NCBI RefSeq assembly: GCF_022878925.1
Contig: NZ_CP084632.1
Coordinates: 1 to 64,000 of the forward strand
Source: Caballeronia sp. TF1N1
GTDB taxonomy: Bacteria > Pseudomonadota > Gammaproteobacteria > Burkholderiales > Burkholderiaceae
DNA length: 64,000 bases
Direction of reading: 5' to 3'
Part shown: one piece after another, positions 1,824 to 63,661 of the stretch
Layout: each line of letters opens with the position of its first letter
Numbering within the stretch: the stretch's first letter is position 1
The notes under the pieces: generated by a model
Database searches by the model: none
Told to the model about the DNA's origin: nothing
Seen by the model: only the letters and a program-made list of their open reading frames with translations
Position numbers and translations under genes: made by a program

Positions 1824-1840
1824 AGAAGGAAGTTCACGCC

Positions 1841-17700: not shown

Positions 17701-20700
17701 GAGTGCGTGCAGAGCCAGAGGGGAAATAGCCATTCCCGCCGCACCAAACGCATTCTCAATGGGCATCGTGTCGAAGTCAGCGTTGCCCGTGAGCCATTGC
17801 TGAAGGTGTTCGACTGCCGGTGCGAAGGTTTTGCTAAGCAGTGTTTGCAGCTTGGACTGCACCACGTCATAGGTCTCGTTGTGGACCTTGATGCCGAGCG
17901 CCTGCGCGAGACCGAGATCGAATGCCCGGCGTTGATCGGCTTGGCTGAGATCGAGCGTCGAGCGGGTCGGCAGCATGATCTCGCGGATGAACTTCGTGCT
18001 CTGCGGGTTGAACTTGCCGAGCATCTGCATGCGTCCCACCCGGCTCATGTTGTAGCCGTAGTGCGTTGGCACGTCCGTGATGGCGATGCCCTTGGTTTCA
18101 GCTTCGCCGGTCAGTGCAGCGTGCAGGTTCTCGAACTCGTCGAATGCCTGCTCGATGGAGCGGTTCTGCCCCACGAGACTTGCCTCGTGATTCACATTGA
18201 GTGCACGACCTTCGAGGTCACCAGCACCAAACCAGCGGCGAGCAACATCACGACCCATGTCGAAGTAAAGATTCGCCATGGTCTCGTTGAGATAGTTCGG
18301 GGTGTTCTGCTCGTTCTTGATAGCCGAGAGCTGGTCCTGCGTGTTCTTCACGTACTCGTTGCGCATCTGAGTGTCGGCAACCTTCGGTCGAGCCTTATCG
18401 AAGTAGTACGCCGGCGTCGGATCATTCATCACCGCACGCTCGATCAGGTCCGGAAACTTGCGCAAGTTTTCCAGCATCTTGCCGTCGAGCACGTTGCGCT
18501 TGTCTTCGCTGTTACGCTCGTTGTCCGTCTTGATGGTCACCAGGCGCTGGATGTGCTTGAGACCCATCTCCTTGATCTGGTCGGCGGTCGGCTCGTCGAA
18601 GATCGTGTCCGTCTCGCTCGGGTGGACGTAGAAGTTGTCCACGTCCAGGTAGCCTGCGTCCGTCAGCGCGCGCAGCACTTCACCGGCCATCGACAGGGGG
18701 ATGCCCTGGGCCAGACCTTCCTGAGCGTCGTCGTTCGCCCGCACGCCCCAGTATTGCGTGATCTTGGCAACCAGCGAATCGAGTGCGTCAAGCGTGGACG
18801 TGGTGCCCTTCACACGGTTCATGATGTCGTCGCCGACAACACTTTCCTGCACGCCGAGGTTTTCGGCCGCGCCCTTTTCGTCATAGACACCGCCCTGCTG
18901 GCCGGAGGTCAGCCACCAGGTCATACCGGCGAGCACCGAGCCTTGCAGGAGTTGCTCGTTGTACTTGAAGGTCGTGCCCGTGTCTTCAGTGAGATTGAGC
19001 ACCTTACCCGCTTGCCAGCGGTGTGCATCGGTGCCATTGCGAAAACGCTCACCGACCGGCACCCGAGGCTTGCCCGACTTGCGATCCTCGTTCTCCGTGA
19101 GGAAGTGTTGAAGGTTGCGGCGCATGATCTTGGCGACTTCATTGGCGCCATTGAACACCGACTTGTATGACTCGAAGACGCCCTTCGCTGCGCTACTCGA
19201 CATCACCCGGATCTGCTGCTTTACGCCATCGCCGATCCCGGCGAGCGGCAACTCGTGCAGCAAGATGTTCGACGGCGGGGTGCCTGCCTTGTCGGCTGCC
19301 ACCAAACGAAAGTTCTTCGTGAAAGCATTACCTTCGGTGCCCGGCTGAACCAGGAGAGGGAACGCAGCTTCCACGCCCTGCTTAGGTGCAGGCGTAGGCT
19401 CAGGTGCGGGGGATGCTTCCTTATCCTTGGTTCCTTCCTTGGAAGGTTCCTTGGTTTCTGGAGTTTGCTTAGGCTGCTCGTTTACCGATTCAGTCTTTGC
19501 GGCTTCTGCAATCTTTTCCGCCGTGGGTACTAAGGAGTCCTTCTCGTCAAGAGAAGCTGAGCTGGCTGCGAGCTTTTCTGCGACGCTATCAGCAACGTTT
19601 ACGGATTCAACTGGTGTCGAGGAATCTTTTACTGCATCCTTCGTGTCAGGCTCCGTAACCGGTTGTTTCGTCTCTTGGCTCTTCGTCTCGACCGGCTCAG
19701 ACTTTACGGATCGGGTGCCGGCTTTGAAGTCCCGCACCACATCACTCACCGTCCCGTCAGCGAGACGAGGATCCAACGAGGTATTCGCCAAATGTTCAAC
19801 CCCAAGCTCAGGGTACGCCGTCGCAAGGTGGTTCGAGAGATCAGTGAGGAACTTAGCCTCGGAAGCTACGCGCCGAGCGAGTCGAACCGATCCGAAGTGA
19901 ACGGGATCAACCCAGACACCCTCCTCGCTGGTGTAGAACGAACGGTCAGCATTCCCCGAGAGAGCCTCGTAGTGGACCGCGTGACTCTTATCCGCATTCC
20001 CGCTCACCAGCGCCTGGTTGATCGCCGCGAGCTTGTTCTGCTGGCTGTGGGCAAACTTCTGGAGATCGAGAAGCTGGAGCCGGGCAGTGTCGAGATCACC
20101 CGCACGGTACGACTGAGCAATCCCCTGAGCGTGTTGCGTCGCCGACTTCTTGAAGGGGTGGTTCGACTCACCGGCGGTCACCTGTTTGGTCACCAAGTCC
20201 TTCGGACTTAGCGGCTTGTCGCCATTGGCCACGAGCCGCGCGAAGTGATCCTTTGCTGCTTGCAGCAGACCATCCGCACTCTTCAGAGAACGCTTCTGGT
20301 TCTGATTCAGACCGAGCTTTGAGGCATGCTTCAGTGCCGTCTTGATTGAACCTTCCGGCAACTCGGAGGGAGCTACTTCCGCTAGATTGGCAATCGTCTT
20401 GGCATCGGCCTGACCTTCAGGCGTGTTCACCCGCTCTTTAGTCAAAGGCGCAATAAGTTGAGCCGCCTTCTGGATCAGCGGCAACGATGCCCGATCCGCC
20501 CGGCTCATGCCCGGCGTCTGATTGATCCCCTGCACAAAAGCGGCCGCACCTTGCGCATACGAGCGCAGGCCATGGTCTGCCGGCAGCCCGTCGAGCTGAC
20601 GCGGGTTGGCATCGGCCATGCCTTGCAGGTCTTCCTTTTCCGCCTGAAGTTGGGCGGCCACGGCCAGCCGGTCCGCGTCGCTGTGCTTCGTGTCGGCCAC

Positions 20701-30035: not shown

Positions 30036-31271
30036 TTACTGCGGTGCGACGGTGTAGATGATGCCGAGACGTTCCGGGCGCTTGATGAGAATGCCGTAGT
30101 ACCACTTCATCGAGCTGAAGCCCTGTTCGCCATACGGATCGGTCTTGTCGGCCGTTTCCTTGCCCGGCATCTTGGTGATGACGTTGAACTTGACCGTCTT
30201 GCCGTCCGTCTGAAAGCCGATGGTCGTGAACGAGTCGTCACCGATGGTGAGCATCGGGAACACGTCGTAGTGCTCGACGCCGCCCACCGAGCTGACACGG
30301 TAGCCGGGATTGTCGTCCGTGGCCACCGCACCAGCGCCTGCCCAGTGCAGCATTTCCGGCACTTGGATGAAGCGCCACTTGCCGATAGCACCGATTTCGC
30401 CGTTCATCAGCGTGCCGGCATCGCCGTATTGCTGGACCGGAACGAAAGCCGGATTGCCGAACAAGTCGGTCATGGCTTCGAGCACCGGAGCCAGTTCCGA
30501 GCCGACGTACATCACACGGCGGGCGCCGAGCGTTTTCGTATCGACCAGGCGCGAACCCGTGATGATCGTCACCGAAGTCGGCGAACGGTTGTCGGTCAGG
30601 ATCTGGTCCAGACGCGAGAGGTTCTTGTACGACACGACGGAAGCCGGGATCTCCGGATTGCCACCAGCGGCCGGCACGACTTCACCGGTGATCGTGGCTT
30701 TCGACGTAGCCGCACCCGAGAACATCACGACGCCCGGAGCTGCCAGCAAGTCCATCTGGAGCTGCGCTTCGGTCATCTGCACGGCGCCGTTCATGAGTTC
30801 GGTCGCCAGATGCTGGCCCAACTCGGCATCCGAGTCGAAGTCCATCGTCTCTTGCGTCCACTCGTAGAACATACCGAACTTGTGGAACGTACCTTCACGC
30901 TCGATACGGGTGAAGCCAACGCGGTTCACGCGGCCACCGTTCTCGGTCAAGTGCGGCAGCTTCGCCGTGATCTTGCCCACGTCTTTGGACGAACCGTAGA
31001 GGTTGCCGTCCTGGATCGTCGCACCTGCTGCGTCGATACCCTGATCGTTGATGTTTCGGTCATCCAGCAGCGGGATGTACTCGTACACCTTGATCTTCTT
31101 GCCCATGTTCTTGGGCATGTTCGTGACCGATGCGAGGGGCATGAAATACTGCTCCTTGCGGGCCGTCACCAACGACGACTTCAGCCACAGGAAGGTGTTC
31201 ATCTGGTCGGAACCAGCACCGTCGATGCTCGACTTTTGCCCGTCGGCCGGGGCGTTGTAGTTCAATGGCAT
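30036..31271 (-). CDS. Major capsid protein (N4 gp56-like)
   Basis: 411 residues, near the N4 major capsid size. The order of this protein, a scaffold-like protein, a small protein and the portal is the N4 order. Recognisable stretches include [20 protein letters not shown] and [20 protein letters not shown]. It forms the icosahedral shell, and no internal scaffold domain is evident. The next gene upstream ends 14 bases before its start. The strong position and sequence character make the assignment firm. Confidence 0.9.
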
Positions 31272-33091: not shown

Positions 33092-35302
33092 CTAGGCCGG
33101 TTGTCCAGCAGGAGCACCGCTTTGTGCCTTAGAAAACTGGTTGTAGCCCACCGCTGCCTGGATATCCGGCTTCGATTCGGCGCCATTGGCCTGTTTCCTT
33201 GGTTTAAGCAGTGCATCGGTCACCTTCAGGTTCTGGTTGGCTTCGGCCTGTGCGGCCTGCTTTTCCATTTCCCGAGCGTGCTTGGTGCCGGTTTCCTGTT
33301 CGACGAAGTCGAGGTTGGTCTTGTCGCCCATGGCCGAGGCAGCCTTGGCTTGCGCGCGATAGAGTTCGGCCTGAGCGTTGTTCTTGTCGATCTCGCTCTT
33401 CTCTTTCTCGATCTGCATCTGAAGCAACTGCTGCTGCATCGGATCGGGCTGCGGCTTGAACGCCAGAATCTTCTTGGCGAGTTCCGGCATCCGCTTCAGG
33501 CGAGCGATCTCCGACAGGATCATGGCCGTGAAACTCCAGTCAGCCTTCGGTCCGAGCGTCTGCAACATGAACGCCAAGTCCTGGGACTGCTGGTTGTCCA
33601 CCTCAGCGGTGGAGATGTCCACAATCAGATCGAAGTTGCCGATCAGCTCATCCCGGCGAACCTGGACAAACTCATCTGCCGTCACGCGGATCGTTTCCTC
33701 TTCCGACATGAAGGCGCCATTCATGGCGATGATCTTGTCGCCGATCTGGCTCATACCCTTGGCAAGTCGCCGCAGAATGGCCATCTCACGCTTCGATGCT
33801 GCATCGAGTGCGGTCTGGATGCCCTTGGCCACATCACCATAGGCCTGGCCGGAGATGCCACCCGAGAAGGATTTCACGCCCGTGAGTGCTTCGGCATCCT
33901 GGTTCATGAACTGAACCATGGTGAGGGCCGACTGCGGGATCTCCGGATACTTGTGCTCGATGAGTCCTTGCGCAATCGGCATGTTCGGGTTGAACTCATA
34001 GTCCTCCCCGTTTTCATACCGACGCCGGTTTCTCGGGTCGAGCATGCCCTTGGCAAAGCCCTGCTGGCCATTAGCCGAGCGGCCCATCAAATCGATCATG
34101 CCTCGGATCGTGGCACCCAGAATCTTCTGGTTGTCTTCGAGCAGCTCCGCATCCGGCTCGCCGTAGGCGCTGCGCTTGATCGGCATGTAGGGGATGACGA
34201 CGAACGGAATCTTCTGATCGGGGAACGGGTTGAGTTCCATCCGCACCATCGTGTCGGCGATCCAGGTGGCCACTATGGGCACCAGCTCGCCCGTGCCGTT
34301 CACATCGTAGAAGCCCCAGTATTCGTAGGCCACGACCTTTTTGCGCGCTGCATCCCGGAACTGGAAGTCGCTCGGCGTGTTGGTGGAGTGCTCGGTGTCG
34401 GTCTGGACCGTGGCACCTTCCCAGTTCACCGCATCGAGATTCCTGTAGCGCTCTGGCTCCTTCTGCATCTCGGCCTTGTTCGTCTCGAACGAGTAGATGC
34501 AAAATAGCGCCTTGTCGGTGTCACCGTTGCAGGAGGGATCGAGATAGAAGTTGCGGATCTCGATGACTTCAGCGGTCGGCCGGTTCTCGACGAGCATGTC
34601 GTTGGTGACCGTCTCGACCCCGTCGCGCTGCGCATATGTTGTCTGGCCAGTCTCCTGATAATGGGAGATGGCCGACTGCATCTCGGGCGGGAGACTGCCC
34701 AGATTGTTCGAGTCTTCCTGAACCAGGGAGAGCGCTTGCTGGAAGGCCAGCATCTGCGGCTGCGTCTCGATCTCGTAATGCACGAAGCGCGGCACCTGCT
34801 GCTTGACCTTCTTGGTCACCCGCTTCCAGCCCAAACGCACGACAGACGTACCCTCATCGACCGTGCAACGCACCAGGTTGTCGATGAAGTTCACGCGGTT
34901 GAGCTTCGTGCGGAACTGCCAGTTGAGCACCGTCTCATTCTGGACGGCAGCTTGGGTCGAGTCCGCATTGGCGGGCTTGACCTGATAGAGCTTGTCGGAA
35001 CCGAGGAACGGCTCGGTTAGTGCCGAATAGCGCCACTCCGTCTGGCGACGGATGAGCTTCGGCTGAACAGCACTGCGGCCCTTGATCTTCTTGGGCTTGG
35101 CCGAACCCGTCACATGGAGCTGATCGAGCCAGGCATTGATGCGGGTGACCTGTGCGTCATGCGATGGCTTGGCCGCATCGAAATCTCCCCGGAGATCTGC
35201 GATGGTCGGTTCCTTCGCCCACTTCGTGAGCTTCTTGACTGGCACTTGTGGCGCAGCCAAGACCTGATTCGGGCTGTCGATCTTCATTGGCGTGTTTTCC
35301 AT
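33092..35302 (-). CDS. Portal protein (N4 gp59-like)
   Basis: 736 residues, close to the N4 portal (about 760). It would form the dodecameric ring at the packaging vertex. The N-terminal part contains WRYSALTEPFLGSDKLYQV and the middle the conserved-looking PFVVIPYMPIKRSAYGEPDA region; the C-terminal 120 residues are a Gln/Ala/Glu/Lys-rich helical segment, as in portal barrels. Two starts are possible: ATG at 35302, which has a poor Shine-Dalgarno, and ATG at 35287, preceded by GGAAAACACGCCA. It is preceded by a strong repeat-based terminator, so it may begin a new transcript. Confidence 0.88.
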   Translation of the reverse strand: MENTPMKIDSPNQVLAAPQVPVKKLTKWAKEPTIADLRGDFDAAKPSHDAQVTRINAWLDQLHVTGSAKPKKIKGRSAVQPKLIRRQTEWRYSALTEPFLGSDKLYQVKPANADSTQAAVQNETVLNWQFRTKLNRVNFIDNLVRCTVDEGTSVVRLGWKRVTKKVKQQVPRFVHYEIETQPQMLAFQQALSLVQEDSNNLGSLPPEMQSAISHYQETGQTTYAQRDGVETVTNDMLVENRPTAEVIEIRNFYLDPSCNGDTDKALFCIYSFETNKAEMQKEPERYRNLDAVNWEGATVQTDTEHSTNTPSDFQFRDAARKKVVAYEYWGFYDVNGTGELVPIVATWIADTMVRMELNPFPDQKIPFVVIPYMPIKRSAYGEPDAELLEDNQKILGATIRGMIDLMGRSANGQQGFAKGMLDPRNRRRYENGEDYEFNPNMPIAQGLIEHKYPEIPQSALTMVQFMNQDAEALTGVKSFSGGISGQAYGDVAKGIQTALDAASKREMAILRRLAKGMSQIGDKIIAMNGAFMSEEETIRVTADEFVQVRRDELIGNFDLIVDISTAEVDNQQSQDLAFMLQTLGPKADWSFTAMILSEIARLKRMPELAKKILAFKPQPDPMQQQLLQMQIEKEKSEIDKNNAQAELYRAQAKAASAMGDKTNLDFVEQETGTKHAREMEKQAAQAEANQNLKVTDALLKPRKQANGAESKPDIQAAVGYNQFSKAQSGAPAGQPA

Positions 35303-46371: not shown

Positions 46372-47090
46372 TACGCCCACCCGTTGAGTGCGAATCGGTT
46401 GTTGGTCTGGCTGGTGGTGTTGCCCACCAGGTCGTAAGTGATGACTTCGGCGCACGCCCCCTCGAACTGGGCGAGATGATCAGCGGCCGCCGCCATGGAT
46501 TCCTGCGTTTTGACCTGGCCAAAGCACCGGTAGGCGATCCAGTTCCGAAGCGCTGCGTGCAGCACATCGGGCAGCTCAATCTCCTGGTCCAGTGCCTCGT
46601 TGAGCACGAGTGGTGCAGGCTTGGCCTGATAGGTAACGGCAAGCGGCGCCCCGCCCACCGGATTGGGCACCTGCAACACGTTCGCTTGCGGCGTGAAAAG
46701 CGAGAACGGGTTCGCGTCGTCGTTGAGCTTCAGCTCGCACCCGCTCACGTCGTACACCTTCAGGATGCGGATCACGTCATCCTTGAAGGGTTCGGCCGGC
46801 AGATCCTTGATGTAGTAATAGTCCTGATCGCCCGTGGCCATCTGGCTTTCGGCGAACTTCAGGATCAGGTGATAGTTGGTGATCCACTCCACCTGTTCGA
46901 TCAGCAGCTCGCTCTCTTTCAGGACAAAGCGCCCGTAGAGCTTCAGCATCCCGTCATTGGCGAAGCGGATCAAACGCTCCTTGCCGGCATCGGTGATGTA
47001 GCCATTCCCATCCTGAGCCAGGGAGAGAGTGGACAACTCGCCGAAGGACAAGTCTTGAAACAGTTGGTTGATATTCAATTGGCACCTCAC
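46371..47090 (-). CDS. Head-tail adaptor/tail tube protein (N4 gp67-like)
   Basis: 239 residues from a GTG start at 47090 that overlaps the terminase stop as GTGA. It lies between terminase and tailspike, the place of N4 gp67. Helical N-terminal part (LSFGELSTLSLAQDGNGYIT) and C-terminal helices (ALRNWIAYRCFGQVKTQESM) resemble tail tubular protein A type adaptors of podoviruses that dock below the portal. No membrane segments. A copy of the dispersed GAGCCAGGGAG motif lies at 47015. Confidence 0.72.
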   Translation of the reverse strand: MRCQLNINQLFQDLSFGELSTLSLAQDGNGYITDAGKERLIRFANDGMLKLYGRFVLKESELLIEQVEWITNYHLILKFAESQMATGDQDYYYIKDLPAEPFKDDVIRILKVYDVSGCELKLNDDANPFSLFTPQANVLQVPNPVGGAPLAVTYQAKPAPLVLNEALDQEIELPDVLHAALRNWIAYRCFGQVKTQESMAAAADHLAQFEGACAEVITYDLVGNTTSQTNNRFALNGWA

Positions 47091-48685
47091 ACGATGTACG
47101 AAGACAGCCCACTGGGTTCCGAGTGGAGTTCCTCGTCCTCGTAGATGCTCACTTCGTCAGGGGTGGCCGGCGCGGAATCGGAAGGCAGCCAAGGTTTAAG
47201 GAACGCCAGTTGACTGACGGTATCGACGAAGTCGTCCTTACCCTTGATACCCGACATGGTCACCAGTTTGATCTGGCCCATCGCCCGTCCCATGATGACG
47301 GAGTGCTTCATCTCTTCCGGGAAGAACATCTTCCCAGCCTTGAACCAAGGAACAACCAGATTGAAGCGGGAGAGCTTGTCGGTGATTGGGCGTATGCCAG
47401 GGTTGCCGCTCTTCTCACTGCTTGCGAAAGAGAACCAGATTTGCCTGCGAACCTGTTCCTTTTCGAGCCAGGAGATGAAGCCACCCTGCTGTCCCGTGAT
47501 CTCGATGCCTACCTGCTGTGGTTTGTACTGCTGGACAAATTTGAAGAGTTGATCGACGGTTTTATCCATCTTCTGGCGTTCCATCATGCCATCAACCCAG
47601 AACCAGTCGCCGTTGCTATTGTAGGCCCACACACTGATCACGGAGAAGTCGGCCGTCTGTTTTTCAGACGTGGCGAAGTCGGTCGTGATGTAGAAGTTGA
47701 AAGTGTGTTTGTTCTGCAACAGAAGCTGCCGCGAGTACCAGCGAATCTCGTTGTCCATCACGAGCCGCTCTTCGTCCGAGGAGATGCGCAGCATCAGCTC
47801 TTGCATGAACGCGGCGACGTGCCCGGTGCCTACGGCAAGATCGTATTGCTCCTTCACGTACTTGAAGGTGAAGCGATCAGGCCAGGCGCCGACGAACTCT
47901 TCCTCGGTGCAGGGGAATTTCTCGCACACCGGCCACACGTTCACATCCCACTGGCCCGACTCGACCGCCTCGATCAGAATGTCGTCCTTGTTGAAGGGCG
48001 TGCCGTTGAAGATCACCTTGCGTTGCGTCGGATCGAGCGCGTGGTTCACGCCCTTGTAGACCGTGTCCTTGATCGCGATCATCGCGGCCTTGGACTTCGA
48101 GTCGTCATCCGAGACGAGGTCATCGAGCACGCACAGCTTCGGCCGCTTGCCGAAGATCTTCGTCCCCCGGATGCCGGTCTTGGCGCCGAACATCTTCACA
48201 CCCAGGCGGTTGCCGCCCCTGCCCTCGAACTCCAGGTAGTTGTCGGTGAAGGTGGCTTTCGGGATCCAGTGCTGCAAGAACTCCGAGTTGTTGTAGCGGA
48301 ACTCGATGTTTTTGCGGGCAGACTTCACGCCGTTGTCCATCGAGTCCGATACGTAGATCATCGACTCGACTTTGCCGAACCCTTCGAGATATCCGAAGAC
48401 GGCGAGAAACAGCACGAAGTATTCGAAGAACAGCGTGGTTTTCGCCGCTCCGCGAAAGCAAAGGTTTGCGATGTAGTCCGACCAGGATTCAACTACCTTG
48501 TCCAGCATCTTCAAGTGGACGGGCGGAGTTCTATGAGATTCACCCTGCCCGCCATTGACGAGCTTGATGAAGTTCATAAAAGTCAGCGCGAACTCACTGG
48601 GTGTGTAGCTGTGACTGTTTAGTTCGGAGTAGTTGACCTGATCGAGCCAAGCATCTAGCTCTTGTTTGATCAGGGTCTTCTTCAT
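47087..48685 (-). CDS. Terminase large subunit (N4 gp68-like)
   Basis: 532 residues. The ATPase part has a Walker A-like FRGAAKTT near residue 77, and LCVLDDLVSDDD as Walker B. The C-terminal RNase H-like nuclease includes YITTDFATSEKQTADFSVIS with an Asp pair and a distal acidic site near KDDFVDTVSQLAF. It powers DNA packaging and cuts the concatemer. In N4 the product has short direct terminal repeats. It is followed upstream by the gp69-like partner (ATGA overlap) and downstream by the adaptor gene. Confidence 0.92.
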   Translation of the reverse strand: MKKTLIKQELDAWLDQVNYSELNSHSYTPSEFALTFMNFIKLVNGGQGESHRTPPVHLKMLDKVVESWSDYIANLCFRGAAKTTLFFEYFVLFLAVFGYLEGFGKVESMIYVSDSMDNGVKSARKNIEFRYNNSEFLQHWIPKATFTDNYLEFEGRGGNRLGVKMFGAKTGIRGTKIFGKRPKLCVLDDLVSDDDSKSKAAMIAIKDTVYKGVNHALDPTQRKVIFNGTPFNKDDILIEAVESGQWDVNVWPVCEKFPCTEEEFVGAWPDRFTFKYVKEQYDLAVGTGHVAAFMQELMLRISSDEERLVMDNEIRWYSRQLLLQNKHTFNFYITTDFATSEKQTADFSVISVWAYNSNGDWFWVDGMMERQKMDKTVDQLFKFVQQYKPQQVGIEITGQQGGFISWLEKEQVRRQIWFSFASSEKSGNPGIRPITDKLSRFNLVVPWFKAGKMFFPEEMKHSVIMGRAMGQIKLVTMSGIKGKDDFVDTVSQLAFLKPWLPSDSAPATPDEVSIYEDEELHSEPSGLSSYIV

Positions 48686-52574: not shown

Positions 52575-52591
52575 CATGCGCTCCGCGCATG
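52575..52591 (+). promoter_or_regulatory. vRNAP hairpin promoter 1
   Basis: CATGCGC-TCC-GCGCATG is a perfect 7-bp stem with a three-base TCC loop, and GTGAGGACAATG follows. N4 vRNAP promoters have a 5-7 bp stem, three-base loop and GCTCCGC on the non-template strand (GCGGAGC on the template). Loop, stem and strand all fit transcription of the early + genes. It lies 40 bases before the first early start codon. Confidence 0.8.
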
Positions 52592-53327: not shown

Positions 53328-53334
53328 TCAAGGT

Positions 53335-53375: not shown

Positions 53376-53525
53376 ATGGTATTCATCGCCCTACATGACG
53401 CTCACGTTGACGCGTATTACCGCGATCTGGATGAGCAGGCAGCTCGGCTGTACGTGCTCCAAGCCGACATGGACATGCAGCTTTGGCTGCTTTATGCGCC
53501 CTCGCCTTCCCGCTACATGCACTGA
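53376..53525 (+). CDS. 49-aa early protein
   Basis: 49 residues (MVFIALHDAHVDAYYRDLDE at the start, ending SPSRYMH), amphipathic with many Asp, Tyr and Leu residues. The ATG follows GTGGGATAGCA. It ends at the first base of the second vRNAP hairpin, so the promoter and stop are packed together. No family was recognised; support comes from position between regulatory elements and full use of the gap. Confidence 0.5.
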   Translation: MVFIALHDAHVDAYYRDLDEQAARLYVLQADMDMQLWLLYAPSPSRYMH

Positions 53526-53539
53526 CACGCTCCGCGTGT
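53525..53539 (+). promoter_or_regulatory. vRNAP hairpin promoter 2
   Basis: ACACGC-TCC-GCGTGT is a perfect 6-bp stem with TCC loop, followed by GATGGGTGATC. A small stem-loop GTGATC-AACC-GATCAC comes right after and could form the 5' end of the transcript. Confidence 0.78.
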
Positions 53540-53773: not shown

Positions 53774-53786
53774 GGCGCTCCGCGCC
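53774..53786 (+). promoter_or_regulatory. vRNAP hairpin promoter 3
   Basis: GGCGC-TCC-GCGCC has a perfect 5-bp stem with an added G-T pair, followed by TGTTGGGTCGGGG. A leader hairpin, TCGGGGTGC ... GCATCCCGA, then a pyrimidine-rich stretch and AAGGAG precede the next gene. Confidence 0.78.
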
Positions 53787-54573: not shown

Positions 54574-55290
54574 ATGAACCAAGGAAAGAAGGTTGCGTTC
54601 ATCCTCGCACCCAAACTTATCCCGATAGAAGACGAGTTCCCGTTGAGTCAGCACAAGGGTTCGTTCGTCTTCAAGGCGCAGTGCGTGGTGCACCCGACGA
54701 ACCGTGCTTTCACCCGTGAGGGAGACATGACCAGCTCTCGGATCATCCGGATAGACATCGGCAAAGGCGAGATCGAGACGCTCAACACGCTCTACAAGGT
54801 CCTGCCCAAGCACCTCGAAAGCGTCTACCGGATGACTGATCCGAGCTATTCTGCGGCGCTCCGCGCCTGTGGCGTGGGTGGGCTTTGCCCTGCCCTCGCC
54901 TTCGCTCAATGCCCTGAACCAGGAGGAAAGATGAATCAAAAGGAATTCGAGGAGCTGTTCCTCGGCAAGTTTGAACCGAAACCTCAGAGCGAGCTGCTCA
55001 CCGCGTTTTACCAGGCCTACCTCTGGTGGCTGACGCTGGGCGCCAATGAAGACATGGGCTTCAGTCGCTACCACGGGCTGTGCGGTGCGCTGCGTCAGTG
55101 GGCCAATCGCAATGCCCAGATCGAGTATCGCCAGCTCTCCGATGAGATGCGCATGCAGTTCTCATGGGAGCGGCTCGACTTCCTACATCCGTTTCATCCC
55201 ACTACCCAGGACTACAACCGGGAAGTGGACCGTGGTGAGGCCCACCTCAACCCGAAGCGCATTCAATGGGTGAAAGACCATGTCAAATGA
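54574..55290 (+). CDS. Two-part early protein, fused by read-through of an intergenic-type stretch
   Basis: 238 residues in one uninterrupted frame. Residues 1-92 are a paralogue of the 117-residue protein at 55833, sharing the order FxxxA-xxVV, a Lys/Arg-Ile-Asp-x-Gly-Lys-like centre (IRIDIGKGEIETLN) and xVYxMT near the end. Residues about 93-119 come from what looks like intergenic DNA: vRNAP hairpin 4 (54855-54867), the dispersed motif at 54916 and a perfect AGGAGG site. Residue 120 is a Met that starts a second, likely independent protein. A lost stop codon or an intentional fusion would explain this. The first ATG has AAGGAAAGAAGG upstream. Confidence 0.6.
   Translation: MNQGKKVAFILAPKLIPIEDEFPLSQHKGSFVFKAQCVVHPTNRAFTREGDMTSSRIIRIDIGKGEIETLNTLYKVLPKHLESVYRMTDPSYSAALRACGVGGLCPALAFAQCPEPGGKMNQKEFEELFLGKFEPKPQSELLTAFYQAYLWWLTLGANEDMGFSRYHGLCGALRQWANRNAQIEYRQLSDEMRMQFSWERLDFLHPFHPTTQDYNREVDRGEAHLNPKRIQWVKDHVK
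54855..54867 (+). promoter_or_regulatory. vRNAP hairpin promoter 4, inside an open frame
   Basis: GGCGC-TCC-GCGCC has the same stem and loop as promoter 3 and is followed by TGTGGCGTGGGTGGG with a GGGC-TTT-GCCC leader hairpin. It is 64 bases before the AGGAGG site of the internal start at 54931. Confidence 0.72.
54931..55290 (+). CDS. 119-aa early protein from internal start
   Basis: Starts MNQKEFEELFLGKFEPKPQS and ends RIQWVKDHVK. The start has a perfect AGGAGG seven bases upstream and its own vRNAP hairpin 64 bases before that. The protein is Trp/Tyr/Arg-rich and helical (AFYQAYLWWLTLGANEDMGF). Independent expression is therefore better supported than expression only as the tail of the 238-residue frame. 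The next gene overlaps its end by 11 bases. Function unknown. Confidence 0.65.
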   Translation: MNQKEFEELFLGKFEPKPQSELLTAFYQAYLWWLTLGANEDMGFSRYHGLCGALRQWANRNAQIEYRQLSDEMRMQFSWERLDFLHPFHPTTQDYNREVDRGEAHLNPKRIQWVKDHVK

Positions 55291-56612: not shown

Positions 56613-57422
56613 ATGAACCAAGCAAAAAAGGAACACCAGCTTGAACTGGAAAGGCTCTTCAGCAAGAATCAGTTGATGAGCCGCATGCGCCATGAGTTCT
56701 CCGTGGATCCGATCTTCATCGACCATGCGAAGAAGCACGGCGTGCCTGAGAAGTTTGCGGTCGATCTGCTCGTACAAATGGCCCTGCACAAGCGTGCTGA
56801 TCTGCCCACCCTGGTGGGCTGCATGCGGCACCATTGCAACAAGGCGCAGGAGGTGGCCGATCTGCTGCTCAAGTGCGCGCAGATTGACCTGGTGGACTGG
56901 TCGCCGAAATGGCGCCAATTCATCGTCAAGTTCGAGCTGAGCGAGACCGCGCAGGCGGAGATCGACCAGTTCCAGTATCCGTTGCCGATGATCGTCGAAC
57001 CAAGGGAGCTGAAGCACAATGCCCAGGGCGCGTATCTCGACACGGACTCCAGCGTCATTCTGAAAGACAACCATCACGAGGATGATGTCTGCCTCGACCA
57101 TTTAAACCGGATGAACAAGGTCAAATTCACGTTGAACTTCAACACGGCCAAGCTCATCAAGAACCAGTGGAAAAGACTGGACAAGCCGAAGGAGGGAGAA
57201 ACCCGTGAAGAGTTCGACAAGCGCAAGCGAGCCTTCCAGAAGTACGACAAGACCGCGCACCAAGTCATCGACGTACTCGTCAAAGAGGGAAACGAGTTCC
57301 GCTTCACCCACCGCTACTGCAAGCGTGGTCGCACGTACTGCCAGGGTCATCATGTTAATTACCAAGGCACACCTTGGAATAAGGCCGTGATCGAGTTCGC
57401 GGACAAAGAGTTGACCTGTTAA
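56613..57422 (+). CDS. RNAP2 small subunit (N4 gp15-like)
   Basis: 269 residues, the same length I recall for N4 gp15. With the larger subunit it forms the heterodimeric T7-like RNA polymerase that transcribes middle genes. The C-terminal part RYCKRGRTYCQGHHVNYQGT carries the T/DxxGR-type promoter and template contact region of the T7 polymerase fold; earlier, DTDSSVILKDNHHEDDVCLD and NKVKFTLNFNT resemble the N4 subunit. In N4 the larger subunit gene follows directly; here it begins about 5 kb downstream, beyond the acyltransferase and plasmid genes. The start is preceded by two CCAAGGAA copies. Confidence 0.88.
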   Translation: MNQAKKEHQLELERLFSKNQLMSRMRHEFSVDPIFIDHAKKHGVPEKFAVDLLVQMALHKRADLPTLVGCMRHHCNKAQEVADLLLKCAQIDLVDWSPKWRQFIVKFELSETAQAEIDQFQYPLPMIVEPRELKHNAQGAYLDTDSSVILKDNHHEDDVCLDHLNRMNKVKFTLNFNTAKLIKNQWKRLDKPKEGETREEFDKRKRAFQKYDKTAHQVIDVLVKEGNEFRFTHRYCKRGRTYCQGHHVNYQGTPWNKAVIEFADKELTC

Positions 57423-57448
57423 CCAAGCAATACAGGAACCAAGGAACC

Positions 57449-57646: not shown

Positions 57647-57675
57647 CCAAGGAAGCAAGGAAGGCAGGAAGCAAG

Positions 57676-57705
57676 GCGAGGCATCCTTCGATGCCTCGCT
57701 TTTTC
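57676..57705 (+). terminator. Strong terminator ending the early block
   Basis: GCGAGGCAT-CCTTCG-ATGCCTCGC is a perfect 9-bp stem followed by TTTTTC. It lies at the end of the early/RNAP2-small transcript and abuts the stop of the opposite-strand acyltransferase, so it marks the left edge of the inserted segment. Confidence 0.88.
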
Positions 57706-58878: not shown

Positions 58879-59045
58879 TCTGGTCTCGCAAGCGTTGTTG
58901 TGATTGCTCTCAGTAAGCAGATACATAGCCCCAGCGAGAACGAAAAATATCAATTCTGTAAGCAAACAAAAGTTGTGTAAGCCACATAGCCACTTAAATA
59001 AACGTTCAGCGCAGTCTGCCGTTAACCACCGTATCTTTGAGGTGA

Positions 59046-59201: not shown

Positions 59202-59220
59202 TATAGGAACCAAGGAAGGT

Positions 59221-59382: not shown

Positions 59383-59393
59383 GTTTGTCCGCC

Positions 59394-59430
59394 AAGGAAC
59401 CAAGGAAACTATCTCCTTGGTTCCTTTTTT
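59394..59430 (+). terminator. Repeat-derived terminator before par operon
   Basis: AAGGAACCAAGGA and TCCTTGGTTCCTT form a perfect 13-bp stem with a seven-base loop, followed by TTTTC. The two arms are opposite copies of the CCAAGGAA repeat, so the repeat family itself creates the terminator. Confidence 0.85.
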
Positions 59431-59432
59431 CA

Positions 59433-59463
59433 TTGGTTAACGGTATTGTTCGCGGTGAACCAA
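59433..59463 (+). promoter_or_regulatory. Candidate par operator/promoter
   Basis: TTGGTTAAC and GTGAACCAA are 9-bp inverted arms (one mismatch) with a 13-base spacer that contains ACGGTATTGTTCGC, a sequence also found at the promoter at 50230. It lies 17 bases before the parA start. Partition operons are usually self-regulated by their DNA-binding protein, which may bind here. Confidence 0.5.
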
Positions 59464-59479
59464 CCTATATGGAGTTCAC

Positions 59480-60124
59480 ATGCATACAATCGTCTTCTCC
59501 TGCCTCAAAGGCGGAGTGGGCAAAAGCCTGCACGCAGCTCATCTGAGTGTGGCGCTAGAACAGATGGGATTCGGCTCAGTGGTCACCATGGACCTCGATC
59601 CGCAAGGCACCCATGCCGACTGGTGGAATAGCCGTGAGGCCGAGACACCGCATTTCGCTGTCGTCGAGAATCACACCCAGCTCAAGACAAAGCATGCTGC
59701 ACTCAAGCGTGCCGGCTACGATTGGCTGGTGATCGACACGCCGCCGCAAGTTGCTGAGATCAACCGCGCAGCCATCAAGCTCGCTGATCTGGTCATCATC
59801 CCCTGCAAGCATTCAGTGGGCGACATCAAGGCCACGCTGCCGACGGTCGAGCTATGCGAGCAGGAAGGCAAGAAGTTCTATTACCTTCTCAATGAGACCA
59901 ATGGCAAGGGCGTGGCGCAGGCGGCGAAGAACAAGCTCGCTGAGATCGGCCCGGTGATTCCGCACACGATCCCCAAACTCAATGGCTATTGGGAATCGCT
60001 GATCCCTGGCAAAACGATCACCGAGGTCAGCAGCGGCACGGGCGCCATTCTCATCGAGAACGTGGCGACCTTCATCGTGCACAAGTTCAAAGGCGCAGTG
60101 AGAAAGGAAAAGGCACATGTCTAA
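59480..60124 (+). CDS. parA: ParA-type partition ATPase
   Basis: 214 residues. Deviant Walker A KGGVGKS at residues 10-16, Walker A' region TMDLDPQGTHADWW, and DWLVIDTPP as Walker B. Short length without an N-terminal DNA-binding domain places it with the ParF/IncC-like (type Ib) ATPases that use a ribbon-helix-helix partner. It would position and segregate a low-copy episome. The gene opens the plasmid cassette and overlaps the next one by eight bases. A maintained circular state of the phage genome is the simplest reason for it. Confidence 0.9.
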   Translation: MHTIVFSCLKGGVGKSLHAAHLSVALEQMGFGSVVTMDLDPQGTHADWWNSREAETPHFAVVENHTQLKTKHAALKRAGYDWLVIDTPPQVAEINRAAIKLADLVIIPCKHSVGDIKATLPTVELCEQEGKKFYYLLNETNGKGVAQAAKNKLAEIGPVIPHTIPKLNGYWESLIPGKTITEVSSGTGAILIENVATFIVHKFKGAVRKEKAHV

Positions 60125-60431
60125 GCATTCGCTCAATTCGATGACCGTGGTGCGCAAAGGCCAGGCTGTGCCGGCCCAATCGACCAACGATCCTTCGCTA
60201 CAAGAAACCAAGGAACAAAGCAAGGAACCTCGGAGCCAAGGAAGGAAGAAACCTTGGGACGATCGCAACGAAGAGGTCGGCGTGAACTACGACATCCCGC
60301 AGCGTGTGCTCATGAAGATGAATCATTTGAAGGGCATGGGCGTGTTCCGCTATCACAAGCACTTTGTGGCGGCTGCACTTGAAGCGGCCTGTGATCGAGA
60401 ACTGGCTAAGCTAGAACGTGACGGTTTTTAG
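60117..60431 (+). CDS. Probable ParA partner (ParG/RHH-like centromere binder)
   Basis: 104 residues. The first half is basic and low complexity (ETKEQSKEPRSQGRKK, encoded by CCAAGGAA-type repeats) and the second half contains NYDIPQRVLMKMNHLKGMGV, then YHKHFVAAALEAACDRELAK: one strand followed by two helices, consistent with a ribbon-helix-helix DNA-binding fold. ParG-type partners have this flexible tail plus RHH layout. Overlap with parA supports the pair. The centromere it binds is not known; candidates are the inverted repeat at 59433 or the dispersed repeats. Confidence 0.65.
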   Translation: MSKHSLNSMTVVRKGQAVPAQSTNDPSLQETKEQSKEPRSQGRKKPWDDRNEEVGVNYDIPQRVLMKMNHLKGMGVFRYHKHFVAAALEAACDRELAKLERDGF

Positions 60432-60541
60432 TTGAACAATATCTCTCAGCCTTTCGCAGATTTAATAAAGATTTAAACCTTGTTTACAGGGTTAACTTTC
60501 GGTCGTGCAACTGATTGATTCGTAAACAGTAAACCCGGTCT

Positions 60542-60636
60542 ATTGGGGCAAATGATCGGGTTGCATTGGGGCAGTTGATCGGGTCATTGGGGCAAATAGG
60601 CAGGCTATTAGGGCAACTGCCCCGGTTATTGGGGCA
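60542..60636 (+). repeat. Five iterons, 21-23 bp period, core ATTGGGGCA
   Basis: Starts at 60542, 60565, 60586, 60607 and 60628, separated by 23, 21, 21 and 21 bases. Between cores, sequences such as AATGATCGGGTT and GTTGATCGGGTC are partly conserved. The fourth core reads ATTAGGGCA. Too few and too short-spaced to be a CRISPR array. Confidence 0.9.
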
Positions 60637-60649
60637 AATAGTCGGGTTG

Positions 60650-60658
60650 TTATCCACA
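60650..60658 (+). promoter_or_regulatory. DnaA box TTATCCACA
   Basis: An exact match to the Escherichia coli consensus, immediately next to the iteron array, as in host-DnaA-dependent plasmid origins. It implies replication initiation shared with the host. Confidence 0.8.
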
Positions 60659-60722
60659 TTTGTGCATAAGTCGGCCAGCGTTACCGTTTGCATTGGGGCA
60701 TCCTCAGTGATAGCGTAAACCA

Positions 60723-60752
60723 TGCCCCAATAACCCGACCGGTTGCCCCAAT
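60723..60752 (-). promoter_or_regulatory. Inverted iteron pair at the rep start (autorepression site)
   Basis: TGCCCCAAT occurs at 60723-60731 and 60744-60752, opposite to the origin iterons and again 21 bases apart, ending three bases before the rep ATG. In Rep_3 plasmids Rep binds such sites to repress its own gene. Confidence 0.7.
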
Positions 60753-60755
60753 AGA

Positions 60756-61505
60756 ATGGCTGACATTGTTCTTCCTCCGCAGGTCACTGCAACCCTCGGC
60801 GACAAGTGGGTGACGTTCGCTAATGCACTGACTCGTGCCATCCATAATCTGACGTTGGGCGAGAAGCGGTTGATCGCCGCGTGCATTGCGCAGGTCAAAT
60901 CCGACGCCCCAGTGCCTCGTGCCGACGAGCCGGAGAAGAAGACCTACACTGTCACTGCCGACCAATATGCCGAGCTGTATGGGGTCAAGAAAGAGACCGC
61001 CTACAGCCAGATGAAGGAAAACCAGGCGACGCTTTGGAAGAAGGAAATCCAGGTCATCGAGAAGACGGGCAAGAAAGGTCGCAAGGTGCGGTGGGTGCAG
61101 GAAATCCAGTACAACGACGGTGAAGCCAGCGTCACCCTGATGTGGACGGACATGATGTGCACGGTGCTCTTTAACCTACGTAAGGAGTTCACCACTTATC
61201 GGCTCAGACACGGCGCGCAGTTCACGAACAAGTACACGTGGGACCTGTTTGACATGCTGGCCATGTGGCGCCGCGCCGGCAAGTTCACGATCAACGTGGA
61301 TGAGCTGCGCGACAAGCTGAACGTAGCCGAGAGCCAGAGGAAGAATTACAAGGAGTTGCGCACGCGTGTATTGGAGCCGGCCGTTGCCGAGATACATGAG
61401 AAGAACGGACTTGTTGTCACAATCGAGGAGCGCAAGAAAGGCCGGAAGGTGGTTGAACTGGCGTTCTCATGGGAAGCTGATCCACAGACTGAACTGAATT
61501 TTTAA
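60756..61505 (+). CDS. rep: Rep_3 family plasmid replication initiator
   Basis: 249 residues. Two winged-helix domains typical of RepE/pi: the first around TRAIHNLTLGEKRLIAACIA, the second around KYTWDLFDMLAMWRRAGKFT, INVDELRDKLNV and KELRTRVLEPAVAEI. The last 50 residues are basic (EERKKGRKVVELAF). It would bind the iterons upstream and recruit host DnaA and helicase to start plasmid-type replication. The start lies right behind the inverted iterons, and no good Shine-Dalgarno is visible, so translation may be weak, as is common for rep genes. Three small genes follow closely as one operon. Confidence 0.92.
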   Translation: MADIVLPPQVTATLGDKWVTFANALTRAIHNLTLGEKRLIAACIAQVKSDAPVPRADEPEKKTYTVTADQYAELYGVKKETAYSQMKENQATLWKKEIQVIEKTGKKGRKVRWVQEIQYNDGEASVTLMWTDMMCTVLFNLRKEFTTYRLRHGAQFTNKYTWDLFDMLAMWRRAGKFTINVDELRDKLNVAESQRKNYKELRTRVLEPAVAEIHEKNGLVVTIEERKKGRKVVELAFSWEADPQTELNF

Positions 61506-61507
61506 TC

Positions 61508-61747
61508 ATGGACAATTACACCTATTACGATGTGCGCCACACGGTAGGCCTGGTCATCCGCGATTCTTTGCAAGCCGTGGAGCTGTCCAATGACGCGCAT
61601 GAGCGGGCGGGCATGGTGATGCGTGCAAGGGGCGCACTGGATGTTCTGGAAAAGCTCATCAACAAAGAGCAGCCGGTAGACGCCACGAAGCAAACCGATC
61701 TCGACAATCTGCGCGGGCAATGCGACACCGCAGGAGATCCACGATGA
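61508..61747 (+). CDS. 79-aa small protein downstream of rep
   Basis: 79 residues, helical and soluble (VRHTVGLVIRDSLQAVELSN, ERAGMVMRARGALDVLEKLI), starting two bases after the rep stop and overlapping the next start by four bases (ATGA). Its tight coupling to rep suggests a copy-control or maintenance role, but no family was recognised. The codon use is like the neighbours. Confidence 0.6.
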   Translation: MDNYTYYDVRHTVGLVIRDSLQAVELSNDAHERAGMVMRARGALDVLEKLINKEQPVDATKQTDLDNLRGQCDTAGDPR

Positions 61748-61977
61748 TCGACACACTGAAACTCTCGACGCGTCTACAAGACAGTGGCATGCCGCCTGAG
61801 CAGGCGAGGGCACTGACCGAAGAGCTAAGCCAGGGACTGAAAGAACAGGCCGTCTCTAAGACCGACCTCGAACTTGCCTTGGCCAAACTCGAAACGGGGA
61901 TCATCACCAAGATCAGCCTGATGATGGTGGTCCAGCTCTTCGCCGTCTACGGCGTGATTAAATACATTCACGGATGA
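61744..61977 (+). CDS. 77-aa coiled-coil protein with C-terminal membrane helix
   Basis: 77 residues. Layout: charged helix (LTEELSQGLKEQAVSKTDLE, ALAKLETGI) then a membrane helix (SLMMVVQLFAVYGVIKYI). The VSKTDLELALAKLE stretch followed by a terminal helix is like small bacterial DUF1640-type proteins. Overlaps the previous gene (ATGA). May anchor a plasmid maintenance complex at the membrane (speculative). Confidence 0.6.
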   Translation: MIDTLKLSTRLQDSGMPPEQARALTEELSQGLKEQAVSKTDLELALAKLETGIITKISLMMVVQLFAVYGVIKYIHG

Positions 61978-61980
61978 ACA

Positions 61981-62214
61981 ATGAGCCAGGAAGGCGAATT
62001 CATTCCCAACCTGCCTCGGTTCGAGTCCGAAGAGCAGGAGCTGCGTTGGATCCTCAACGAGCTGCACAAGGACTACCAGAAGAAGATCCAGCCCATCGTC
62101 AAGCGACTGCAAAAGATCGATGCGGCTCGGCCGCTCCCACCGGTGAACACCGGCAGTGTTGATCAGATGAATATGCAGCAGATCCGCGAGTTGCTTGCTC
62201 GATATCGCAAATAA
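61981..62214 (+). CDS. 77-aa small helical protein
   Basis: 77 residues, acidic then basic (EGEFIPNLPRFESEEQELRW, ELHKDYQKKIQPIVKRLQKI), ending QIRELLARYRK. Starts three bases after the previous stop. No motif or membrane segment. Last gene of the rep operon before a structured segment and terminator. Function unknown. Confidence 0.6.
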   Translation: MSQEGEFIPNLPRFESEEQELRWILNELHKDYQKKIQPIVKRLQKIDAARPLPPVNTGSVDQMNMQQIRELLARYRK

Positions 62215-62260
62215 ATTGAAAGTGTAATGAAGTGTTAACTAGGTAACAAAACGTTTGCGC

Positions 62261-62313
62261 GGTCTCTCGTAATCTCTGCGCTGCCACGAAGACGGGGCCA
62301 GCGTAGAGAGACC
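62261..62313. repeat. Long-range stem-loop, possible small RNA or operator
   Basis: GGTCTCTC (62261) pairs with GAGAGACC (62306), and TGCGCTG-CC pairs with GG-CCAGCGTA inside it, giving a branched or interrupted stem. A TTAACTAGGTAAC imperfect palindrome lies just before. This is non-coding; it could be the start of a small RNA ending at the terminator at 62334, or a leader structure. Confidence 0.4.
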
Positions 62314-62333
62314 AACCAAAACAAGATGTTTGT

Positions 62334-62371
62334 AAAGCCGCCATGGAGCAATCCTGGCGGCTTTTTCTTTT
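62334..62371 (+). terminator. Terminator ahead of the large RNAP2 gene
   Basis: AAAGCCGCCA and TGGCGGCTTT form a perfect 10-bp stem with an 11-base loop, followed by TTCTTTT. It ends the rep operon and insulates the large RNAP2 gene 25 bases downstream, which must have another promoter or depend on read-through. Confidence 0.88.
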
Positions 62372-62395
62372 GGTCTTTCAAACTTGGAGTCAACC

Positions 62396-63661
62396 ATGCA
62401 GAAATTCTCTGGCGCACAGTACCTGGCTATCGACATCGCTTCGAACTATGGCCTGGACAAGAAGACGTGGAACGAACGCCTCTCCTGGTTCGAGGCCCAC
62501 AAGGACAAGCTGCACGAAATGCTGGCCACGAGCGAGACGCCGGCGCTGTACTTCGCGGGCGTGTCCGCTTACGAAGCAATGAAGGCAGGCGAAGCGAGCG
62601 GTTACCCGATCTCGCTTGATGCCACCAGCTCGGGCTTGCAGATCCTCTCGGCCATCACCGGCGACCGCAAGGCTGCCGAGCTGTGCAACGTCATCCCTTC
62701 CTGGCTCAACGGAGTGCTCAAGCGGGCTGACGCGTACACCGGTGTCTACGACATCATGTGCCAGCGGCTCATGCACGGCGGCCCTGAAGTCAAGACGCTC
62801 GCCGATGTCACCGGCGACAAGCAGGCACCGCAGGTGAAGATCAGCCGATCCGACTGCAAGGATGCCATCATGACGGCGCTCTACGGCAGCGAAGCGGTGC
62901 CCAAGAAGGTGTTTGGCGAAGGCCATCAGCTGCACGTGTTCCACGAAGTCATGGAAGAGGTGGCGCCGGCCGCGTGGGAACTGAACAAGGCATTCCTCGA
63001 CATGTGGAATCCGGATGCCCTGGTGAACTCCTGGGTGCTGCCGGACAACTTCCACGTGCACGTGAAGGTTATGGCCAAGGAAGTAGAGACCGTTCAATTC
63101 ATGAACGTGCCCTATGACTGCGAGCGCAAGGTCAACATGTGCAAGGAAAGCGGGCGCAGCCTCGGCGCCAATACCATCCACTCCATCGACGGCATGATCG
63201 TGCGGGAGATGACACGCCGCTGCAACTACGACCCCGTGGTCGTGCAGCGTGTCTGGGATGCACTGGAAGGCAAGGGTGTTATCGGTAACGACGCCGACGA
63301 CAACTTGGTGCTCGAACTCTGGCACCTGTATGAGGAATCGGGTTATCTGTCGGCCCGCATCCTCGATCACCTGCGCGTGGACAACGTCGACTTGATCGAC
63401 GAGGCGGTGCTGCGTGAGTTGTTGCTCTCGTTGCCCACCAAGCCGTTTGCGATCATGGCCATCCACGACTGCTTCCGCTGCCTGCCCAACTACGGCAACG
63501 ATCTGCGCTGGCAATACAACAACCAACTCATGTTGCTGGCCCGCTCGAAGATGCTTCAGTTCCTTTTGCGTCAGATCTTAGAACGTAAAGATCTGAAAGT
63601 TTCGCCTTTGGATGCCGATATGTGGAGGGAAATCCCAGAGACCGAGTACGCCTTATCCTGA
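62396..63661 (+). CDS. RNAP2 large subunit (N4 gp16-like, T7-like polymerase core)
   Basis: 421 residues from the ATG at 62396 (GGAG seven bases upstream); N4 gp16 is near 400. Polymerase motif A is SLDATSSGLQ with Asp75, motif B is RSDCKDAIMTALYG with R151, K155 and Y163 (R-x3-K-x7-YG), and motif C is IHDCF with Asp358. The protein therefore carries the palm and fingers, and the small subunit at 56613 supplies the N-terminal part. Together they transcribe middle genes such as the replication block. In this genome the gene is split from its partner by the plasmid cassette. Confidence 0.9.
   Translation: MQKFSGAQYLAIDIASNYGLDKKTWNERLSWFEAHKDKLHEMLATSETPALYFAGVSAYEAMKAGEASGYPISLDATSSGLQILSAITGDRKAAELCNVIPSWLNGVLKRADAYTGVYDIMCQRLMHGGPEVKTLADVTGDKQAPQVKISRSDCKDAIMTALYGSEAVPKKVFGEGHQLHVFHEVMEEVAPAAWELNKAFLDMWNPDALVNSWVLPDNFHVHVKVMAKEVETVQFMNVPYDCERKVNMCKESGRSLGANTIHSIDGMIVREMTRRCNYDPVVVQRVWDALEGKGVIGNDADDNLVLELWHLYEESGYLSARILDHLRVDNVDLIDEAVLRELLLSLPTKPFAIMAIHDCFRCLPNYGNDLRWQYNNQLMLLARSKMLQFLLRQILERKDLKVSPLDADMWREIPETEYALS

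Follow-up and report, generated by a model that had tools for sequence, protein, structure and literature searches.

Bacteriophage N4 is a textbook lytic phage, its family has long been held to be purely lytic, and N4-like isolates have been studied for therapy. Here we analyse a 64,000-nucleotide stretch of DNA from Caballeronia sp. TF1N1 (the window; bases 1-64000 of the 79,569-bp contig NZ_CP084632.1, hereafter C7), in which N4-like phage genes surround a cassette of plasmid replication and partition genes. An earlier note on this DNA had read it as an N4-like phage-plasmid and had described N4-like phages as known to be lytic and without integrases. The latter statement is too strong, because N4-like lysogeny by integrase is reported in the accessible text of PMC10654107, where temperate N4-like viruses are proposed from integrase, transposase or diversity-generating retroelement genes and from integrated regions. 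A temperate life is proposed both for those integrase-bearing proviruses and for C7, but that paper uses neither 'plasmid' nor 'partition' in its main text. The phage-plasmid groups of Pfeifer and Rocha (P1, N15, SSU5, AB and others; PMC11652158) resemble C7 in combining phage genes with plasmid replication and partition genes, whereas all eight groups in Table 1 of that article are siphophages or myophages, with no podophage among them, unlike C7. Roseobacter prophages are treated in PMC8224337, the accessible text of which mentions no N4-like plasmid. Phage-plasmids are therefore known as a class, and an N4-like one is apparently undescribed: we found no description in the literature searched (mostly judged by titles and the beginnings of abstracts, with most subscription papers and bioRxiv outside the search), in line with the earlier note's remark that none had been described in detail.

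The circular contig and its plasmid cassette

C7 is very probably a complete N4-like (Schitoviridae-type) phage genome that persists in its host as a circular plasmid of low copy number, judging from its gene content and closure. It is one of 9 contigs of the assembly (7,070,108 bp, 99.87% complete). A 2-kb piece taken from the 0.9-Mb contig of this assembly has its nearest PLSDB matches in replicons of Paraburkholderia caribensis (77%), which makes a host from the Burkholderiaceae likely. The last 48 bases of the contig run in frame into the first gene, and the joined open reading frame (ORF) encodes a 436-aa DNA helicase that aligns end to end and colinearly with N4 gp37 and the Pokken helicase (the portion inside the window lies at 1..1263 on the plus strand). 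Because this gene is intact over the join, C7 closes as a circle separate from the chromosome, although collapsed terminal repeats of a linear genome are also compatible with this arrangement. The assembler seems to have opened the circle inside the gene, with no base lost. The earlier note had asked whether the full contig is circular; it is, the helicase reading through the 79569/1 join. C7 combines morphogenesis and packaging genes with a Rep_3 initiator and its origin on a closed contig of its own. Since this circle carries its own genes for plasmid copying and sorting, the phage probably lives quietly in its bacterium as a plasmid.

The gene order of C7 is broadly that of N4 and Pokken. 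Compared with these two genomes, its replication genes comprise the helicase, a DNA polymerase (1739..4498, plus strand, 59% identical to N4 gp39), an exonuclease, a primase, a Sak4-like protein and a single-stranded DNA-binding protein (SSB). Other N4-type genes encode the virion RNA polymerase (3781 aa, 11728..23073, minus strand, 40% over 3165 aligned columns to N4 gp50), structural proteins, the major capsid protein (30036..31271, minus strand, phrog_1357 at 6.5e-135, 75% to N4), the portal protein (33092..35302, minus strand, 56% to N4 gp59), the N4-type large terminase (47087..48685, minus strand, 71% to N4 gp68) and rIIA/rIIB homologues. The phage RNA polymerase II is represented by its small subunit RNAP1 (56613..57422, plus strand, 58% to N4 gp15) and its catalytic subunit RNAP2 (62384..63661, plus strand, 47% to N4 gp16, phrog_2051 at 3.3e-153). 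By these genes (giant virion RNA polymerase, capsid, portal, large terminase, DNA polymerase and RNAP1/RNAP2), C7 is of the Schitoviridae type.

The cassette sits between RNAP1 and RNAP2, which are about 5.0 kb apart in C7, whereas in N4 they are separated by 47 bp with neither ParA nor Rep between them. Every element that the earlier note had listed for a plasmid module (ParA, a small partner, an AT-rich stretch, five iterons, a DnaA box, inverted iterons and a Rep_3 initiator) was located here as one cassette, where that note had placed it. The ParA partition ATPase (214 aa, 59480..60124, plus strand) matches Pfam AAA_31 (5.2e-14) and phrog_164, 'ParA-like partition protein' (1.8e-28), and its P-loop KGGVGKS is intact, starting at residue 10. 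Its PDB matches are ParA 5u1g and ParF 4dzz (the latter over residues 3-200), and it scores 122 bits against NF041546, under the cut-off of 180 bits. Like ParA of type Ib, it is small and has the P-loop without an N-terminal helix-turn-helix. The parA gene overlaps by 8 bp the gene for a small partner (104 aa, 60117..60431, plus strand), a candidate centromere binder with a ribbon-helix-helix (RHH)-like C-terminus; partners 35-43% identical to it follow ParA in other phage contigs. The AlphaFold2 model of the partner has a disordered N-terminus followed by a strand and two helices (E59-61, H62-73, H80-101), with pLDDT (predicted local distance difference test) values of 90-97 by block from residue 61 to 100. 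A homologue search in 5.8 billion proteins returned the partner itself alone, among 3 candidates; this search is weak for such proteins, since IMG/VR did yield partners. A scan of 60400-60800 for centromere repeats found the iteron family and its inverted copies only.

The presumed origin begins with an AT-rich stretch (60440..60500) in which A+T reaches 0.68-0.78 in the 40-bp windows from 60440 and 60460, with the peak of 0.78 in the window from 60460. Five direct iterons with the core ATTGGGGCA (one ATTAGGGCA) follow at 60534..60649 on the plus strand, spaced 23/21/21/21, and the repeat scan found a sixth direct core at 60688..60700 (plus strand) and two inverted iterons at 60723..60755 (minus strand), just ahead of rep and likely an autoregulation site. 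Counting both strands, there are 8 copies of the core TTRGGGCA in 60432-60790 (359 bp), compared with a mean of 0.08 and a maximum of 2 in 500 dinucleotide shuffles; these are all of its copies in the 64-kb window, and the whole 79.6-kb contig has 9. A DnaA box, TTATCCACA, lies at 60650..60658 (plus strand) and a second DnaA-box-like site at 60661..60669 (minus strand); the window has no other match to TTWTNCACA. The Rep_3 replication initiator (249 aa, 60756..61505, plus strand) is full-length, with both winged-helix domains, WH1 and WH2 (Pfam Rep3_N 2.5e-35 and Rep3_C 2e-18; phrog_4402 3.4e-51), and matches 1hkq and 1rep in the PDB. Its best NCBIfam model is RepM, but we do not use this name because the score (156.6 bits) is under the 250-bit cut-off. 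An initiator with two winged-helix domains, direct iterons about 20-22 bp apart, a DnaA box and inverted copies near rep is the arrangement of Rep_3 iteron plasmids.

The cassette is flanked by phage genes and hairpins. A conserved 77-aa phage gene (61981..62214, plus strand; 84% identical in contig G101 and 69% in contig G106, described below) lies between it and RNAP2. Intrinsic terminators, each with a 13-bp stem, were found on the plus strand after RNAP1 and the next early gene (57673..57702; -22.4 kcal/mol, z-score -5.0) and directly upstream of parA (59394..59426; -20.5 kcal/mol, z-score -6.8). A terminator-like hairpin followed by a T run (62334..62364, plus strand; -21.4 kcal/mol, z-score -4.2), missed by the pattern scan, lies between the cassette and RNAP2.

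The cassette in related phages and other N4-like lineages

We retrieved the RNAP2 loci of the best 80 of 103 IMG/VR relatives, with up to 8 kb on each side. Within the fetched stretch, 78 of the 80 loci have RNAP1 upstream of RNAP2, and the gap between the two genes has a median of 748.5 bp. In four loci (L162, which is G101; L163; L164; and L212, which is G106) this gap contains ParA, the small partner and a winged-helix gene, and these are the four nearest to C7 by RNAP2 (91, 65, 60 and 62% identical, respectively). The four contigs come from four metagenome datasets, and the N4 capsid gene is present in all four records. The other 76 loci (RNAP2 at most 56% identical) have no match to ParA, Rep_3, RepL, the winged-helix gene or the partner in the fetched stretch (tblastn, 1e-4); two of them lack RNAP1 in that stretch, and their gap is not visible. 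Removal of a 127-bp exact overlap closes G101 into a circle of 77,807 bp, in which a 530-aa terminase is intact over the join; for G106, whose ends fail to join cleanly, we claim no closure. In C7, G101 and G106 alike, the cassette is followed by the conserved 77-aa gene and then by RNAP2. The initiator differs: C7 has Rep_3, and the other four have instead a winged-helix protein of 196-217 aa that is HTH_36/MarR-like (by Pfam in G101 and G106, and by alignment). Short-repeat arrays follow its gene in G101 and G106. From their position, their HTH_36/MarR-type domain and the nearby repeats, these winged-helix proteins are candidate initiators. In Caballeronia sp. LZ034LL, a 77,218-bp contig encodes an RNAP2 that is 67% identical to that of C7, and this element is probably a further member of the clade.

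Outside this clade, the Rep nearest to that of C7 among those we found (67% identical) is on an IMG/VR contig, G105, and not on a plasmid. G105 encodes ParA (71%), the partner and Rep_3 in the same order as C7, and neighbouring matches to baseplate wedge, baseplate hub, portal, endolysin and DnaB-helicase genes point to a contractile-tailed phage. An IMG/VR scan with ParA gave 14 loci; the partner is downstream in 12, and the remaining two end at a contig edge. The N4 capsid was found in one of the 14 records (G106), most of the records being fragments; of two further records, the first encodes a portal from a different family (phrog_1216) and the second gives lytic-tail and internal-virion matches. 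ParA-partner cassettes closely related to that of C7 are also seen in phage contigs in which the N4 capsid is missing: L013/G105 (contractile-tailed by its genes), L018 and L025. When Rep and ParA were searched against plasmid collections, as the earlier note had suggested, the best plasmid Rep was 42% and plasmid ParA 35-44% identical among the matches listed, lower than the relatives in phage contigs. We infer that the cassette passes among phages and is not a recent graft from a plasmid. The 80.8-kb Pandoraea plasmid NZ_CP102779 (Rep 42%), considered as a sister element because of its size, was rejected, its genes being those of a conjugative plasmid.

Analogous cassettes were detected in more distant N4-like lineages. 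A GTDB capsid-alignment scan gave 16 loci, and the genomes of 11 were searched for ParA and Rep_3 (L056 shares its genome with L055; L058, L059, L062 and L063 lie outside this search). Cassettes were found on two capsid contigs that stand alone, contig 6 of Larsenimonas suaedae DSM 22428 (Rep_3 at 9.8e-38, ParA, a small gene and iterons 21-22 bp apart, with ends that overlap exactly by 123 bp) and sequence 16 of Vreelandella venusta NBRC 102221 (ParA, a small gene and a RepL-like match at 2.2e-8, with a deaminase gene intact over the join). These circles are distant from C7 (capsid 55%) and have the cassette at another place in the genome. More ParA or Rep_3 matches were seen in Vreelandella, Alteromonas and three metagenome-assembled genomes, on contigs outside those examined. 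N4-like capsid genes were also observed on contigs of 100-233 kb, longer than a phage genome, in L049 (Dyella), L053 (Alteromonas) and L057 (Marinobacterium), possible integrated N4-like proviruses.

The capsid matches one of the 72,556 PLSDB records, Acinetobacter baumannii pRBH2-3 (NZ_CP110465.1; 75,126 bp, circular by record), which has ParA, a small gene and an HTH_36 gene in a row. The record is that of a finished plasmid, and the isolate came from a human source. The outer two thirds of pRBH2-3 were compared with the phage record OK149216.1 (vB_IME_Ab2712, host A. baumannii, from hospital sewage, marked UNVERIFIED): bases 1-25000 are 98.7% identical over 96%, and bases 50001-75000 are 99.6% identical over 80%. 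Because of this near-match over 50 kb, one A. baumannii lineage is recorded both as a resident plasmid and as a phage; no Rep_3 was found in OK149216. Judged by these gene contents, C7 is one of several N4-like phage-plasmid lineages, with analogues in at least three more. They are nevertheless a minority: ParA is present in 2 and Rep_3 in none of 20 IMG/VR N4-like records longer than 60 kb, and the unbiased figure for ParA is 1 of 19 because G106 had been found via ParA.

A membrane O-acyltransferase gene of C7 (57706..58965, minus strand; Pfam Acyl_transf_3 3.6e-26; phrog_6705, O-antigen acetylase, 7.9e-17), probably for surface-antigen conversion, adjoins the cassette and has no match in N4, Pokken, pRBH2-3, G101 or G106. 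It is likely a lysogenic-conversion gene, which may change the O antigen and shut out related phages; such exclusion is a common trait of lysogens. In a greedy and crude gene model of C7, 18 of the 81 entries have no match in the same five genomes, the helicase being counted twice and some of the 18 being antisense to likely genes. Another protein without a match in these genomes has 251 aa, collagen repeats and a YadA-type membrane anchor (71141-71896, plus strand); YadA anchors are present in some N4-like viruses (PMC10654107, accessible text). The short repeat GGAACCAAGG has 15 copies in C7 (19-60 kb, densest at 54-60 kb), often just ahead of genes, and 11 copies in G101, 11 in G106, 6 in Pokken and 1 in N4. 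No tyrosine integrase (PF00589) was found on C7, against 13 matching places elsewhere in the genome, in a search that did not include serine recombinases. Scans of the window gave no Rfam match and no tRNA.

Proposed plasmid state and rival explanations

From the signals of the origin we infer that C7 replicates as a plasmid. Rep would bind the iterons and, with DnaA, open the AT-rich stretch to start replication, while the inverted iterons would let Rep repress its own gene and ParA and the small partner would segregate the few copies. Host RNA polymerase would read the cassette in the plasmid state, and the terminators would separate it from the early operon. The early phage genes would be silent because their promoters, hairpins served by the virion RNA polymerase, need the injected enzyme, a late protein that arrives in the particle. 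Induction would shift replication to the phage DNA polymerase, primase and SSB. Candidate early promoter hairpins with a TCC loop were found by a hairpin scan at 52575..52591, 53525..53539, 53774..53786 and 54855..54867, all on the plus strand. These 4 hairpins (stem of at least 5 bp, 52001-55500) compare with a mean of 0.08 and a maximum of 2 in 300 shuffles, and there are none on the plus strand of 57431-62400. Given these positions, the presumed early promoters are upstream of RNAP1 and none is in the cassette. In bases 1-12000 of N4, TCC-loop hairpins with 7-bp stems occur at 557 and 4546, positions that we take to be those of virion RNA polymerase promoters, and G101 has five TCC-loop hairpins in the corresponding early region. 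Two minus-strand ORFs opposite the early operon (51666-51914 and 52036-52329), with no Pfam matches, are candidates for expression in the plasmid state.

Several observations weigh against a quiet plasmid controlled in this way. No terminal overlap was found between the ends of C7, and assembly as a circle would also be expected if the phage genome were linear with terminal repeats. The terminators that flank the cassette are not seen in G101, and insulation by terminators is not general because that contig lacks comparable hairpins. The TCC loop was chosen after inspecting N4, and the clustering is not universal: G106, Larsenimonas and Vreelandella have such hairpins in scattered positions. 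A search of 57.0-63.7 kb for sigma-70 consensus promoters gave none, compared with 3.1 in shuffles, and Pfam scans covering some of the genes of no assigned function found no repressor; weak matches to small ORFs, under the Pfam cut-off, were disregarded. The small partner, a gene that the earlier note had rightly seen next to parA, has no Pfam match above the cut-off and none in PHROGs or NCBIfam. The RHH-like nature that the same note had suggested for it fits the strand-helix-helix model, but Foldseek found no match in the PDB, and this identity is therefore plausible rather than proven. Finally, among overlapping samples of 101, 399 and 398 genomes, each including TF1N1 itself, a strong N4 capsid or RNAP2 match was found in its own genome only; the remaining matches are weak (capsid E-values of 2e-4 to 4e-9 in five genomes, RNAP2 7e-4 in one).

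Some of these points would also suit a virulent N4-like phage that contaminated or persistently infected the culture in a carrier state and used the cassette for plasmid exclusion or for help in early replication. Circular assembly alone cannot separate a plasmid from a linear genome with terminal repeats, and 18 of the 20 long IMG/VR records (17 chosen by capsid and 1 by RNAP2) lack ParA. We nevertheless consider a carrier state unlikely: C7 has partition genes and a complete Rep_3 origin, iterons and DnaA boxes included, comparable cassettes in other lineages use initiators of different families, and the A. baumannii relative is recorded as a finished plasmid of a human-source isolate. It is very improbable that C7 is a former phage-plasmid whose cassette no longer works. 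C7 is alone in its clade in having Rep_3, the other four carrying another candidate initiator, which would suit such a relic; however, the genes are full-length without stops, Rep has both domains, the P-loop is intact and the iterons are regular. Rep and ParA do not look like relics because they are full-length and differ from G105 mostly at third codon positions (differences at the three positions of 0.26/0.16/0.53 for ParA and 0.27/0.16/0.58 for Rep). Least credible of all is an assembly chimera in which a plasmid fragment was joined to a phage contig: four contigs from four metagenome datasets have ParA and the partner between RNAP1 and RNAP2 as C7 does, Rep_3 comes after this pair in G105, and C7, G101 and G106 all have the 77-aa gene and RNAP2 beyond the cassette. 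The same pair at the same site in four contigs, with the same trio in G105, means that the cassette is not an accident of assembly. The reading as an N4-like phage-plasmid, proposed in the earlier note, is thus supported by the circle, the N4 core genes, the intact cassette and the related phages that use the same site.

A phage-plasmid of this kind poses the question of how a phage with early genes activated by an injected polymerase stays quiet. One possible and still tentative answer is that a swappable plasmid cassette between the RNA polymerase subunit genes made this N4-like clade phage-plasmids. No classical repressor would be needed, silence coming by default once the virion polymerase is diluted; RNAP2, beyond the cassette, may act as the switch; and the ParA-partner module may be exchanged among unrelated tailed phages while the initiator changes. 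Because some relatives have the cassette and others lack it, initiators vary at one site and unrelated phages have a ParA-partner pair in common, this is directly testable. If the plasmid state is real and occurs in several lineages, some N4-like phages would be able to persist as lysogens and carry surface-modifying genes.

Comparison with known systems

C7 shares with N4 and Pokken the virion RNA polymerase, RNAP1/RNAP2, the replication, head and packaging genes and the broad gene order, and its likeness to Moo19 and JWAlpha is known by capsid comparison only. In its initiator, C7 resembles the Burkholderia phages KS14 and FLC10, whose Rep_3-type proteins are 40% and 38% identical to its own. 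These phages differ from C7 in their genomes of 32-33 kb and are presumably of another phage type; KS14 is, we assume, maintained as a plasmid prophage. The A. baumannii pair pRBH2-3 and vB_IME_Ab2712 is, like C7, an N4-like circle with ParA and a small gene, here in a row with an HTH_36 gene, but pRBH2-3 differs in its capsid (50%), in its ParA (32%) and in having the cassette elsewhere in the genome.

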